A stretch of 64,000 nt of DNA from Rugalucina vietnamica (taxonomy: Eukaryota > Mollusca > Bivalvia > Lucinida > Lucinidae). This document shows positions 515 to 42,700 of this stretch, piece by piece. The translations under genes and the position numbers were made by a program. Location: contig OZ024871.1 in the NCBI GenBank assembly GCA_964017185.1, forward strand, positions 28,062,488 to 28,126,487, in the 5' to 3' direction. Position 1 is the first letter of the stretch; every line of letters begins with the position of its first letter. The notes below the pieces were generated by a model. It saw only the letters and a program-made list of their open reading frames with translations. It made no database searches and had not been told where the DNA came from.

Positions 515-711
515 TTACACAAAGTGTTTACTTACACAAGGTGTTTACTTACACAAGGTGTTTACTTACAGAAAGTGTTTACTTACACAAGGTGTTTACT
601 TACACACACAAGGTGTTTACTTACACAAGGTGGTTACTTACACAAGGTGTTTACTTACACAGTGTTTACTTACACACACAAGGTGTTTACTTACACAAGG
701 TGTTTACTTAC
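515..711. repeat. 17-bp minisatellite made of the exon 49 donor site
   Basis: Eleven units of GTGTTTACTTACACAAG, two with an extra CACA. On the minus strand each unit reads CACCTTGTGTAAGT, which is exactly the last exon 49 bases plus its donor. Confidence 0.9.
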
Positions 712-763
712 ACAAGGTGTATGATGTCATGTTCATCTGTATGCTTCTCGGGTTTAACTCCAC
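712..763 (-). CDS. ZZEF1: ZZEF1 exon 49 (ZZ finger, histidine pair)
   Basis: Residues 1683-1700, GVKPEKHTDEHDIIHL, matching human GVKPEGHGDDHEMVNM; supplies ZZ ligands His1690 and His1694. 52 nt, phase 1 to 2, TTTATAG acceptor and GTAAGT donor. The donor is the first unit of an 11-unit minisatellite. Confidence 0.92.
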
Positions 764-36700: not shown

Positions 36701-39700
36701 AAAAATGAGATTAAAATTAAAAATCACTCCTAACACCCTTAAACAGGAAAGTGGACTCACCCAATTGATAATGATGGGAGAATCCATTCGTCAAATATGG
36801 GTTAACCTTCTTCTGTAACTTTACAGCCTGATTATAGTCTGATCTGGTTTTAAATGGAAAGATTTTCAACGACGGGGCTCATACTCATACCTGTCTCTGT
36901 AAACAAACACTAGACCCCTCTTTGCTCCTTTCTGACCAGAGGATACCTTGATCCGAATCTTAGTAAGCTGGACATATTCGGCCGACTTGAAAAACATGTT
37001 CACTTTCATCTTGCCTTCTTCTGTCACATAGGCTGAAAAAGCATTCAAAAGATCATGAGCCACCTCGTGGAAAAACCAACAATGTGGTTTCCGAACAGGT
37101 CTGACACAAACTGTCACCGTCACAGAAGCAAGCTAGAAGCTTGAAATTTTGGAGTTAAGTAGAGGAGGAATTGTACTACCCATGTAGCGAAAACAAAGGC
37201 GCTGATCAGCTTCGCGGTTACCGCGAAGCTGATCTGCGCCTTTGTTTTCACCTATGCAGATTGTTGGTTTTCCCATGGGATGGCTCATCATGTCGAATAA
37301 ACAATGAATTTTTCTTACGTGATTTAACACATTTTTAACAAACTCCCTAGCAGTGGCATCATTCACTCCCTTCTATCGTATAATGCCCTTACCGCTAAAC
37401 ACAAAATTTTACCTTATTAGTATTATGCAAATGACCTGGATGCAATGCAACATAATTAGACACCAAACTTTTCCTGGGCTAGCCTTGCCAATTCATATTA
37501 CCAGTGTAAGTGTTAGTTCTTTTGCCATCTTCGAACCTTCATTGAAAGAGGAAAAATATTAATGAAAATGAAAAGTTTGATTACTGCATAAACTTAGGTG
37601 GTTTTAATGTTCTTAAACCTTGAGAGGAAATCATGGTGTATCAGACTCTGGATTCATTACGAAAACATGTCCATATGATATACAGTAATTTTTTCAGGTC
37701 AAAAATCAATAATTTTCAGAGGAAAATTTTTGATATTTTTCTTATTTTTGCTCAAAACATAGATTGTGGGTACTCGTTAGAACCGCCTCGGCGAGGTGGT
37801 TCTAACGAGTACCCACAATCTATGTTTTGTAGCAAAAATAAGAAAAATGGGTATACCTCTGCATACCCCAGTTTTACTATATAAAAGTGGGGTTTGAGGG
37901 GGTATACATTGCACGGACATGTTTTCCTGATGTGAATATGACAAACAAAACCAACCTGGAGAAGAGTCCGTCCACGATGCCAAGAGGACGTTATCTGGTT
38001 TGGAATGTTCATCATTGCTGCCACCATCACAGCCAGCCAATGTTGTCTGTAGAGGGTGCCCTGAATATACAAAACATGAGCCACCTCGTTAAAAAACCAA
38101 CAATGTGGTTTCCGAACAGGTCTGACACAAACCGGCCTGTACAGCTACAGAAGCAGGCTAGAAGCTTGAAATTTTGGAATTAAGTAAAGGGGAAATTGTA
38201 CTATCCGAGTAGCGAAAACAAAGGCGCTGATCAGCTTTGCGGTTACACTAGGATAACTTTTCACACTTCTCAAAATTTTCGGCCCTTGGCCGTCAGGAAA
38301 ACATGTATTTTCTACACCTAGGTGGCATCCATTTTGAAAATTCATAATTGTGGTATCAACAATCAGGGGTGAGCATAAATAATAATGGGCCACCACATAA
38401 GAAAACCAAATATCTGCACAACTGATCAGCACCTTTGTTCCACTGAATAGATAGTGCAATGCCTCTTCTTTCTAAATCTCAAATACCAAACTTGTAGCTA
38501 TTTTCAGTGGATGTACCGCCTGGTTTGTGTCAGACCAGGTAGGAAACCCAGATTGTTTGTTTTTTTTTCTCTTGTGAAGGCTCATACTGTATATACGTTT
38601 GTATCTTTGTGCCACCAATGGCTCAGGTCAGCAGCTTGTATAAGCCGCTATGCGAGAAAACTGGCCTTCGGGGTTTCCAACCAGGTCTGACACAAACTGA
38701 CCTGTACAGTCACAGAAGCAGGCTAGAAGCTTGAAATTTCGGATTTAAAAAGAACAGAAATTGTACTATCCGTGTAGCGAAAACAAAGGCGCTGATCAGC
38801 TTCGTATAGCACTCACCAGTTCTCTCCCAGCAAATGTCCCTGGCTTTATACATCTTTGCCATCAACTTGGTACAGGGGAATGTCAGATCAGCATGCTCTG
38901 TAACAGAAAAATCACAGGATAAGGTTACTGGGCTTACTAAAGGCTAGGGGACTTTGTGCTCTTGCATATTATAATGATGTTTTTTCTTTTGACTTTTATA
39001 CAATTCAGCGGATAAGTATTACATCATTGTAATGTAAAAATCTACATAACATCGCTGTCAAAAAATCCCTTCAGTTTGCTAAAACAAAGATGAAATCACA
39101 TACTATCTGGTCAAGAGAAGCAAAAATAAGTCAGCCCCTGGCCTATATGCCCACACTGAACCTTACCTTACCTATCAGCTTGCTTACCTTGTGATAATTT
39201 GATTGTTTTGAGAAGACACCTTACATGACCTCTAGCAAGATTAAAAGCCAACTGAGCACCACATGCTTACCTTGTAACAACTTGATTGTTTTGAGAAGAC
39301 CCCCTACATGACCTCTAGCAAGGTTAAAAGCCAACATTAGCTGTACACCATCCGGCAAAACTTCATTTTCCTGGCTGAAATGGATAGGGAAAAACACAGA
39401 TAATCCACATGCAAAGCATTGGTCTTTTCATATACACAAAGAAACAGATGAGCTACATGGTAAAATTGCTCCTTTTAACCCAATAATGGCAAATGGATTT
39501 GCCCCTCAATATGAATTGGATGAGTCCACTGTCATATTAATGGGCATCAGCAGTGATTTTGAATTTTTATTCCATTTTCGATGAAATTTCTCTAAGCAAA
39601 CAGAATAGCCCCAGATTGGATGCCGCATAATGCGGCGTCACATCTGGGGCTATTCTGTTTGCCTACGTCCAACAAATAGGATGCCAGGTTTAAATGAGTT

Positions 39701-42700
39701 GATTTTCAAATGATTTGATTTTCACATCCAAAAACAGAGCTGTGAAGTTAGCTTCTCTGGTTACACATCTGCCTGATTGGGAACCCAAGGTGGTCTCACA
39801 TTCACTTATGATGAGTATCATCTGACAGTTTGGCAAACCTTTCACAAACACTGAATGACTGATCTGCCCACAACACATTTTTGAAGGCCATTGAAGATTA
39901 GCAAGGTAACTTAATCCAACTTTTGCACAACTAATCTATTTCTATACAGAGATAAACAACTTACACAGCCATATCTGTAAGGAATTTCTCTACCTCTGTA
40001 AGGACCAGCTTACTGAGAAACCTTGGTTTGTCCCCACTGGCAGGACATAGAGACAGAGGGGGTATATTCTCCATTGTTTTCCTGTAATAAGTCATTGAAA
40101 GCGTTGCCATTAAATTTAAAAGCATTTTCATTCTATGCTTATAGGATAGTGGTAATTTTGCACACCACATTATCAATGGAGAATCATTTCTTGTTCATCT
40201 GAGTTAGAGCTTTATGGTGTACAGTGAAGGTCATGTCGGAAAAGAATGTTATCCAAGCAAATACCTGGGCAGGTTAACAGTACCTAGCTGAAGAGATAAT
40301 AATCACAGGCAAATTATTATTACCAGGGGCCAGTTGTTCAAAACTTTATTAGCATAACGCCATCGTTAAGCCCTAAATTTGTTAACTATATATCGACTTC
40401 AAAAGCAAATACACTGTTACTTTTTGATGAAAAAATGTGAGAATCCTTTGCAATGCAAAGGATTCTCACATTTTTTCAACAAAAAATAACAGTGTATTTG
40501 TAATACTGCCATTTGAAATTTTAATAAATTGTTAACTAACGACATCCTTAATTTTGAAAAACTGGCCCCAGATCTTGCCAGATATGATGATTGATCATGG
40601 GTCTGCTTCTTTAAGAATCTGACATGGTATTGACCATGCTATCAATACGACTTTGAAAAGCCTGATCTTTTTAGCAGCAGTTAACGTGAAAGAAGTTCCA
40701 TACAGTTCAACATACTAACACAAGTTCCTTCCATTGTCTACTCACTTTGAATGTTCGAGGATATTTTTCTGCAATATTGGTGCCATTGGTATGGATGCTG
40801 TTACTGTTGAAGCAAGGACTTGTAGGAACCACGTGGCAGCAGAGTCGCCTATACTGATGCCTTCTTCTTTCACCACCCTAGAAAATGAGCCACAGAACTT
40901 TGCTACTGTGAAAACAAAGATGCAGATCAGCTGTGCAGTAACTGCACAGCTGATCAGCGCCTTTGTTTTCTCTTCATACATGTTGTATAGTAAAATTCTT
41001 CTACTTTCTAAATCTCAAATTTCGAGCCTCTAGCCCTGTTCTATAGCTGTACAGCCTGATTTGCGTTGGACTTAGCTTCGAGGTTATAAAACTTTTTTCA
41101 TGCTCAACTCAGCTGAGCTTGAAATTTTGAACGCTCATAATTACTGAAACAGCCCAAATAAATTGAAATTTCAGGTTTATATGACTAGAGCCTGTAATTT
41201 ATCCTGCTCATAAATGTTAAAATGCCAATAAATTTTAGTCTCAGCTGAGCTGAACACGAAAAAAGTTTTATAACCCTGGGACCTGGTCAGAAACCTAGAA
41301 GACAGCTTTTCTCATAATGAAGGAAACGAGCGGGTTACGAGCCGTGATGTGGTCTTCTGGTTAAACCAGATTTGACACAAACTGGCATGTGCAGCTACAG
41401 GAGATGGCTAGAATATTGAAATTTCAGATTTAGGATAAAGAGGAATTTTACTATCCGAGTAGCGAAAACAAAGGCACTGATCAGCTGTGCATTTACTGCA
41501 CAGCTGACCTGCGCCTTTGTTTTTGCATAGGCAAAAATCTGGATTTCTCATGACACCGCTCAAATAGTTTTGGCTTTATGTTGATAAATCTTTTATTTCC
41601 ATAATTATTTTTTTTTTCAGTTTTGAGGCCAAGACTTGCAGGAAGCATATGGCAGCAGTCATCATACTTGTATCCTCTTCTTTAACCATCTTAAAATGTA
41701 GTAATGTACACTTTATGGCTTATTTGAGGCAAGTTTTGCATTAAAGATGAGGAAATATTTTAAAAGATTTTTCAACTATTCTTGTATGCATTAATTTATT
41801 GTATAATAAAGTTGCACCCTATGGGTCGTATGCCTTTTGCCAGGTGAACATATGTCATCAATAATGCACCAGTCATTTGTATCCCCAGCTCCCCCGGGGC
41901 CGGGGAATGGCGGGGCTTTTAACTTTTCATTTTTTAAAGCCCGGGCAAAAGCCCGGCACCGCCGGGCAAGATTTGTGGTAAAATCCCTGCTAAAAGCCCC
42001 GGCTCCCCAGAGGCTGACAATAATGTGGAACAACAGCTGAGAGTTGTTCTGATGAAACTGAAACATGAGAGAAGGGCTTTAATCTGTGCATGGGAATGTT
42101 AAGGTGCATTTTCAAATTAAATAAATAGCATAAAAATAATTAAATGTTAAAAATACCATTAATATCTAATTTGAATTAATGTGACCGTGTATTGGTGGGA
42201 AATTATAACCCAGGCAAATCCCCGGCACTGCGGGGACGCATCATAGGTTAAAGCCTGGCACTTAAGCCCCGCTATGTCCCCGCTATCCCCGGAACCGGGG
42301 GAGCCGGGGATACAAATGACTGGTGCATAAGACATCCATGTACCAGCCGGTATAGAAACTGCAACCTCCGGATTGCTAATTAAATACAGTATCCATTAGA
42401 CTACCACAGCTGGTAGTGTATAGAGTAGTGCATATTTGTATAAAGCAGTTTCAATTTGTTCAAAGCTGTCAAATATTTAAACTTTAGAAATATAGGTAAT
42501 GAATGGAAAACTGCATTTTGCTCACTTTTTTAATTAGTTGTATGTGTATCACATGTATTCAACAAGCTATATGAGTCACATCAATAGAAAATCGCATACA
42601 TGTATTTTGCATATGTGAAAACAAAGATGCAGATCAGCTTCGCAGTAACTGCACAGCTGATCAGCGCCTTTGTTTTTGCTTCAATGATAGTTTATTTCTT

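Follow-up and report, generated by a model that had tools for sequence, protein, structure and literature searches.

Minisatellites, or variable-number tandem repeats (VNTRs), occur in genes as short multi-copy units, and slippage or unequal exchange makes them grow. Genes with tandemly duplicated and mutually exclusive exons are also well known (PMC9013439), and in the oyster alternative oxidase a duplicated exon is used by alternative splicing (PMC5589949). Introns can also be gained through tandem genomic duplication, as described by the AGGT model, in which an exonic piece is duplicated and a new intron arises (PMC3443670, PMC4974935). Here, we describe tandem arrays of exon ends in a ZZEF1-type gene of the lucinid bivalve Rugalucina vietnamica, which crosses, on the minus strand, a stretch of 64 kb (contig OZ024871.1, C3:28062488-28126487; "the window" below, in whose coordinates features are given). 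The assembly searched comprises 1.09 Gb in 47 contigs. These arrays look like a common small duplication that splicing can ignore and not like a proven exon hotspot, and what is new here is their scope, since exon-end arrays recur beyond ZZEF1 in conserved genes. Among the literature matches listed, none described arrays of exon ends for bivalves or for ZZEF1, which is weak evidence.

The exon model was built with a small, purpose-written gene finder followed by manual checking, and consists of 45 exons, with exon 19 represented by one further copy. Without this copy, the exons occupy 7.5% of the window (4774 bp). Their numbering is that of an earlier note on this DNA, and exons 1, 11, 12 and 38 lie outside the model. 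The exons are joined in ten blocks, within which the joins are in frame (for exons 48 and 49 after the boundary had been corrected by hand). Pfam profiles matched along the gene model in the order EF-hand (sub-cut-off), APC10 (4.9e-15), CUB (sub-cut-off), and ZZ (1.4e-9). Thus, the required succession of EF-hand, APC10/DOC, CUB-like and ZZ domains is present within one gene, and because this is the layout of ZZEF1, the gene name holds. The gene presumably also resembles human ZZEF1 exon by exon.

Arrays were detected by Tandem Repeats Finder (TRF) and by self-BLAST of the window, the latter accepting nearly adjacent copies with an offset of 12-1000 bp and at least 40 bits. Self-BLAST gave 14 clusters in the 64-kb window, or 12 when three pieces of a 166-bp satellite are counted once, and six of these overlap modelled exons, namely exons 49, 48, 40, 29, 19 and 15. 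The exon 19 pair is absent from the TRF list and was found by BLAST. When 46 exons (both exon 19 copies included) were compared with their own 1.5-kb flanks, the best 25 results considered comprised exons 29, 48, 19, 40 and 15 at z 36-80, exon 13 at z 10, and the next exon at z 1.72. Exon 49 escapes this comparison because its unit contains only 9 nt of exon. With a looser setting that allowed up to 800 bp between copies, 23 local repeat clusters were found in the window, of which the same number, six, was exonic; the best copy pair of each cluster added in this way is exon-free, and several of them are dispersed families.

As shown in Table 1, the tandem copies at exon ends reported in the earlier note do exist, with arrays of 17, 83, 129, 131/134, 158/180 and ~183 bp, in agreement with its unit sizes, and their units are indeed unrelated to each other and contain splice sites. 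The note had listed seven exons with adjacent copies. This is correct for exons 15, 19, 29, 40, 48 and 49, whereas the seventh, exon 13, contributes a single old, non-adjacent relic, a degraded copy of ~66 bp located ~745-750 bp upstream of the exon with repeat sequence in between. The relic reaches a local alignment score of 46, compared to a maximum of 28 among shuffled sequences (0 of 500 shuffles reached 46).

TABLE 1 Exons with local copies, their arrays, and other repeats used for comparison in the window
Feature	Position	Strand	Basis
Exon 49, second half of ZZ finger	712..763	-	sequence, boundary hand-corrected
17-bp array, 12 copies, at exon 49	510..720	-	TRF
Exon 48, ZZ finger, copy with acceptor and donor	1598..1739	-	gene model, Pfam
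131/134-bp array, 3 copies, acceptor and ~first 105 nt of exon 48	1636..2013	-	TRF, self-BLAST
Exon 40, copy bearing acceptor	11259..11411	-	gene model
~183-bp array, 6 copies, exon 40 3' part and donor	10367..11388	-	self-BLAST
Exon 29, copy with its own acceptor	27459..27681	-	gene model
158/180-bp array, 6 copies, ~last 130 nt of exon 29 and donor GTAAGT	26574..27590	-	TRF
129-bp pair, 2 copies, 93% identity, exon 19	33308..33552	-	self-BLAST
Exon 19 downstream copy, Gly at changed codon	33315..33404	-	gene model
Exon 19 upstream copy, Asp at changed codon, both splice sites	33444..33533	-	sequence comparison
Exon 15, copy bearing acceptor	39271..39374	-	gene model
83-bp pair, 92% identity, ~last 65 nt of exon 15 and donor, one downstream copy	39181..39335	-	TRF, self-BLAST
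Exon 13	40746..40877	-	gene model
Exon 13 relic, ~first 70 nt copied	41623..41688	-	local alignment vs shuffles
151-bp array, comparison, outside modelled exons	14835..15882		TRF, self-BLAST
166-bp satellite, comparison, outside modelled exons, dispersed in genome	17905..23274		TRF, self-BLAST, genome search
21-bp minisatellite, comparison, outside modelled exons	48586..49361		TRF, self-BLAST

The arrays of the gene fall into three classes. In the donor-side class (exons 15, 29, 40 and 49), the copies lie downstream and consist of the 3' end of the exon with its 5' splice site, and in the acceptor-side class (exon 48 and the exon 13 relic), the acceptor or exon start is copied upstream together with the 5' part of the exon. 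Exon 19 forms the whole-exon class, and it alone has copies that are entire exons bordered by two splice sites, the units of exons 13, 15, 29, 40, 48 and 49 holding one end only. None of the units of the seven exons is contained entirely within an exon. Those junctions between copies that were inspected by eye display 0-2 nt of microhomology, the type left by end joining or template switching.

The state of the copied splice sites differs between arrays. The unit at exon 49 consists of the last 9 nt of the exon and 8 nt of intron, resulting in 12 tandem 5' splice sites, of which 11 look intact (positions 711 to 535, score 4.6-4.8), with a score of 0.5 for the last one (position 518). All six donors of the exon 29 array look intact (7.5-7.8), and its copies, pairs of which reach 95% identity, each have an acceptor-like site within the exon sequence (inner acceptors, 6.4-8.5) and resemble a 103-nt exon; the exon's own acceptor is not copied. 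A search of the assembly with the exon 29 array, the only exon array examined in this way, gave a single match, so that a mobile or dispersed unit was rejected for this array. The exon 40 array is old, with alignments that are 72-86% identical, and its copies 2 and 4 have acquired stop codons as well as small deletions. The two upstream copies of exon 48 come without the donor of the exon, the sole candidate being a weak GT further inside (score 2.2), and end in stops at codons 35 and 36. Reading through the first donor leads to a stop after 4 nt for exon 49, 50 nt for exon 15, 41 nt for exon 29 and 32 nt for exon 40. Both copies of exon 19 are complete, with 90 nt in frame and the phase kept, and the intron between them is 39 nt, compared to 244 nt for the next shortest modelled intron. 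Judged from this gap, inclusion of both copies in one mRNA is unlikely. The Asp and Gly versions of exon 19 are a candidate pair of mutually exclusive exons.

These arrays resemble minisatellites and VNTRs in genes in their head-to-tail units (17 bp x12 at exon 49, six copies each at exons 29 and 40), exons 15 and 19 having merely pairs, and differ from them in that the unit is an exon end with a splice site and that the arrays of the window have unrelated units. With tandem exon duplication, as outlined in PMC9013439, they share the local copies within one gene, and exon 19 and a dynein exon on contig C4 are whole-exon cases. Judged from its complete 90-nt copies and kept phase, exon 19 fits this category. 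Unlike it, most of the copies found here are partial exons with one splice site, in up to ~20 head-to-tail copies. The oyster alternative oxidase is likewise an exon duplication inside a bivalve gene, and the title and abstract opening of that report do not mention arrays of partial copies (PMC5589949). The AGGT model also involves a short tandem duplication that multiplies splice-site-like sequence in a gene. However, as the model is outlined (PMC3443670, PMC4974935), the duplicated segment lies within an exon and an intron is gained, whereas the units described here carry an exon edge together with flanking intron, an existing exon end is copied into an existing intron, and a new intron is unnecessary. 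The partial-exon arrays with a single splice site thus fit neither the definition of tandem exon duplication nor that of AGGT intron gain, as given in these sources.

The same structures were found in other genes of the genome. Five families (myosin, AAA_6, SNF2, DHC_N2 and kinesin) were scanned for exons in which the same profile range is repeated within 1 kb. Copies were visible in 3 of 87 exon groups for myosin, 5 of 88 for AAA_6, 2 of 56 for SNF2, 1 of 80 for DHC_N2, and 5 of 122 for kinesin. Together, this amounts to at least 16 of 433 exon groups, which is a lower bound, as only the best candidates were scored and short copies are invisible in such a scan. Two of the 16 are doubtful (C4:62407309 and C9:34577135), and another one, a myosin group at C3:16465077, we take to resemble the known alternative myosin exons. 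Exon-end arrays recur in dyneins and in a gene that we assume, from its translated exons, to be choline-transporter-like; the kinesin candidates are based on profile matches only. The sequenced cases belong to the same three classes as in ZZEF1, with donor-side arrays in dyneins on C17 (112 bp x14) and C13 and in the choline-transporter-like gene (65 bp x ~20), acceptor-side arrays in the dyneins on C17 and C13 and in an exon of the 3' part of ZZEF1, and the whole-exon array in the dynein on C4 (156 bp x6).

Some of these loci are dense in copies. A dynein heavy-chain region on C17 (C17:29962600-29966600, locus L029, and C17:29979493-29982048) has three exon arrays, namely the donor-side 112-bp array (97.5% identity), an acceptor-side array of 84 bp (~4 copies, 94.8%) and, further upstream, one with a spacing of ~158 bp (x16, profile matches only). 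The 65-bp units of the choline-transporter-like gene, each with an exon end and donor, are located in the right flank of the window, at C3:28210612-28211952 (flank coordinates 248125-249465). At C10:15533131-15534957, a kinesin exon shows seven profile matches to about the same range within 1.8 kb.

Arrays are not confined to the window or to exons. The 200 kb flanking the window contain 39 arrays, or 0.195 per kb, which is similar to the density in the window, where the 64 kb hold 14 clusters, or 12 independent ones. Five of these 39 touch predicted exons, a count that depends on ab initio prediction, which at a score of 18 recovered about half (23 of 46) of the exons already known, the flanks not being scored strictly. 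If arrays were spread uniformly at the density of the flanks, 4.6-5.9% of exons would be touched, which corresponds to 20-26 of the 433 exon groups, and the 16 that were visible fit such an exon-blind process. When ZZEF1 is scored alike, with copies of at least ~29 residues, 4 of the 45 exons in the window have copies, which does not clearly exceed the 16 of 433 elsewhere (P 0.11); with all seven exons (7 of 45) the P value is 0.003, detection then being unequal between ZZEF1 and the other families. ZZEF1 would be a gene at the high side of the spread and not a special case, also considering the similar array density in the flanks and the 3' part of the gene, where one of eight arrays is exonic.

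The probable explanation, in our opinion, is frequent short tandem duplication that is tolerated at exon ends as splicing pairs the nearest sites. The genome would make and retain short tandem duplications often, at about one array per 5 kb examined, in and outside exons, and some of the duplications would land across exon ends. There, they would be tolerated because the spliceosome, by exon definition, presumably pairs the nearest acceptor and donor over a short exon. With a donor-only unit, the donor adjoining the acceptor would be used and later donors would be idle in the intron, and with an acceptor-only unit, the last acceptor, adjoining the donor, would be used. The extra ends may then be neutral, some drifting as intronic debris (exons 40 and 13) and others expanding from two to ~20 copies, presumably by slippage or unequal exchange (as at exons 49 and 29). 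Only a whole-exon duplication, as for exon 19, would easily supply a usable alternative exon. In the window, the working exon is situated at the upstream end of the donor-side arrays and at the downstream end of the exon 48 array. This position is consistent with nearest-pair splicing without proving it, as the requirement that one exon stay intact dictates it as well; the geometry rests on the window arrays, as the working exon of the acceptor-side array on C17 is not distinguishable.

Several observations weigh against this explanation. When 12 units were placed randomly, 1.64-2.22 exonic ones were expected and six were seen (P 0.002-0.013, depending on the choice of region and on whether an edge or any overlap was counted). 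Within the gene, with arrays collapsed, 6 of 10 are exonic (P 0.009), and at the density of the flanks the six exonic arrays of the window have a P value of 0.019. In the window and in the dynein loci described below, young arrays are the most exonic: of those with at least 90% identity, 5 of 7 are exonic in the former (exon 29 being included for its 95% copy pairs, although its best-scoring alignment is 89.7%), and so are 5 of 5 in the latter (P 0.011). This is the reverse of what slow purging of exonic arrays predicts. With all loci pooled, the window included, 13 of 26 arrays are exonic, compared to 7.2 expected (P 0.01). Finally, the exon 48 copies differ from the real exon by seven distinct changes, every one of which is synonymous, whereas 26% would be expected (P 7e-5). 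This is unexpected for unused debris.

These points would be explained if exon ends were true hotspots at which this genome amplifies sequence in tandem, so that new exon-end arrays arise more often than arrays in introns of these genes, their effect being masked by splicing. Possible causes are exons that, in a very polymorphic species, act as islands of identity between divergent haplotypes and seed unequal exchange, R-loops, or breaks near splice sites. The 10 of 12 young arrays that are exonic in the window and dynein loci, and the three exon arrays in the single C17 dynein region, would suit a hotspot, and the synonymous-only differences of exon 48 would fit derivation from two functional alleles. 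Nevertheless, we consider hotspots rather unlikely. The gene was chosen for the very feature under study, so the P values of the window are optimistic. Part of the case made in the earlier note also falls away. It had compared the arrays with an exon content of ~8%, a baseline that we rejected as too low, for the true target is exon plus unit length, and the chance that a randomly placed unit meets an exon is 15-19% (mean over 12 units). The presence of exon edges in nearly all units, which it had found telling, was rejected as a signal as well, since exon-length units that overlap an exon nearly always take in an edge. To represent the original events, random placement of units is the fairer choice of null; the conservative one, in which whole present-day arrays are placed randomly, predicts 5.0-5.9 exonic arrays compared to the six seen (P 0.37-0.59). 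Counted over the whole gene at the density of the flanks, seven exonic arrays have a P value of 0.046.

Replication outside the window gave a weaker signal. In the 3' part of ZZEF1 (21 modelled exons, with two further exons allowed for without a model), the one exonic array out of eight compares to 1.7 expected, and the single array with at least 90% identity is not exonic (0 of 1). In the dynein AAA_6 loci (13 loci, 68,113 bp, others left out), 6 of 8 arrays are exonic, compared to 3.3 expected (P 0.057). These loci were taken roughly by the number of matches per stretch, which favours extra copies; two of them were known beforehand to hold arrays, and a third, on C13, showed copies in the same match table. 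One of the arrays (L030, 343-1024) entered the exonic count although its identity is just 64%. Together, the 3' part of ZZEF1 and the dynein loci give 7 of 16 exonic arrays, where 5.0 would be expected (P 0.2). Leaving out the two dynein loci with arrays known beforehand reduces this to 3 of 12, compared to 3.3 (P 0.69). In the gene-poor flanks, 11 of the 39 arrays have at least 90% identity, and at most two of these overlap predicted exons, with one doubtful case. Thus, the suggestion that exons are favoured stands for the window, where overlap is about three times that of randomly placed units, and not in general; a preference for exons is a possibility and not an established result. The earlier note had proposed that exon-intron junctions are fragile, an idea that survives as a weaker lead, given the P value at flank density and the young arrays. 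Its other proposal, that older intronic duplications are simply harder to see, is at odds with the youngest arrays being the most exonic in the window and dynein loci, so that decay alone does not account for the excess in the window. It had also named tandem duplications equally common away from exons as the finding that would speak against a special role of exons, and this is largely what the flanks and the looser spacing in the window (6 of 23 exonic) show.

Alternatively, the copies could be functional, as selected alternative or regulated splice sites and exons, with exon 19, for instance, as a mutually exclusive pair, and donor arrays as switches to unproductive mRNA. The complete exon 19 copies with only 39 nt between them speak for this, as do the intact donors of exons 29 and 49. 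The base changes between the copies of exons 19 and 48 point in the same direction. The exon 19 copies differ at four bases, which affect two codons synonymously and change one Asp/Gly codon at two positions, and when taken singly three of the four changes are synonymous (P 0.03). Seven of 12 changes are synonymous for exon 29 (P 0.02), 3 of 6 for exon 15 (P 0.22), and 19 of 57 for exon 40 (P 0.05). The bias would be explained by origin from two functional alleles, by recent loss of use, or by past use. For exon 48, one of the seven synonymous changes is located at a copy boundary, and two of the copies cannot code at present despite their synonymous-only changes. We regard a function of the copies, the examples of exon 19 and the donor arrays included, as improbable, as most units are partial exons and entering them gives early stops, the exon 40 copies have decayed (3 of the 57 changes are nonsense), and young, unconstrained copies would show intact sites as well. 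An artefact in which two haplotypes or noisy reads were misassembled is very improbable, even though haplotigs are easily retained when polymorphic animals are assembled. The copies differ by ~5-28%, more than simple doubling in the assembly would suggest, and some changes occur in one copy only. In addition, 6-20 copies are present in several arrays, the exon 29 array is a single match in the assembly, and the pattern is found on several contigs.

Arrays in which an exon end and its splice site are present in 6 to ~20 near-identical copies offer natural tests of how the spliceosome chooses sites, and of exon definition in particular. Exon-end arrays may also mislead gene annotation and the alignment of RNA reads. 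If it is true that young arrays favour exons, a mutational process would be linked to gene structure.

Other repeats in the window were found outside the arrays discussed above. The intronic 166-bp satellite gave 237 scored matches in the genome when a 501-bp piece was used as query, the window's own matches included. There are also two direct repeat pairs, both with 97-98% identity, one of 233 bp with copies 137 bp apart (12895-13127 and 13265-13497) and one of 255 bp with copies 578 bp apart (30692-30946 and 31525-31779), the latter having matches elsewhere in the window too.

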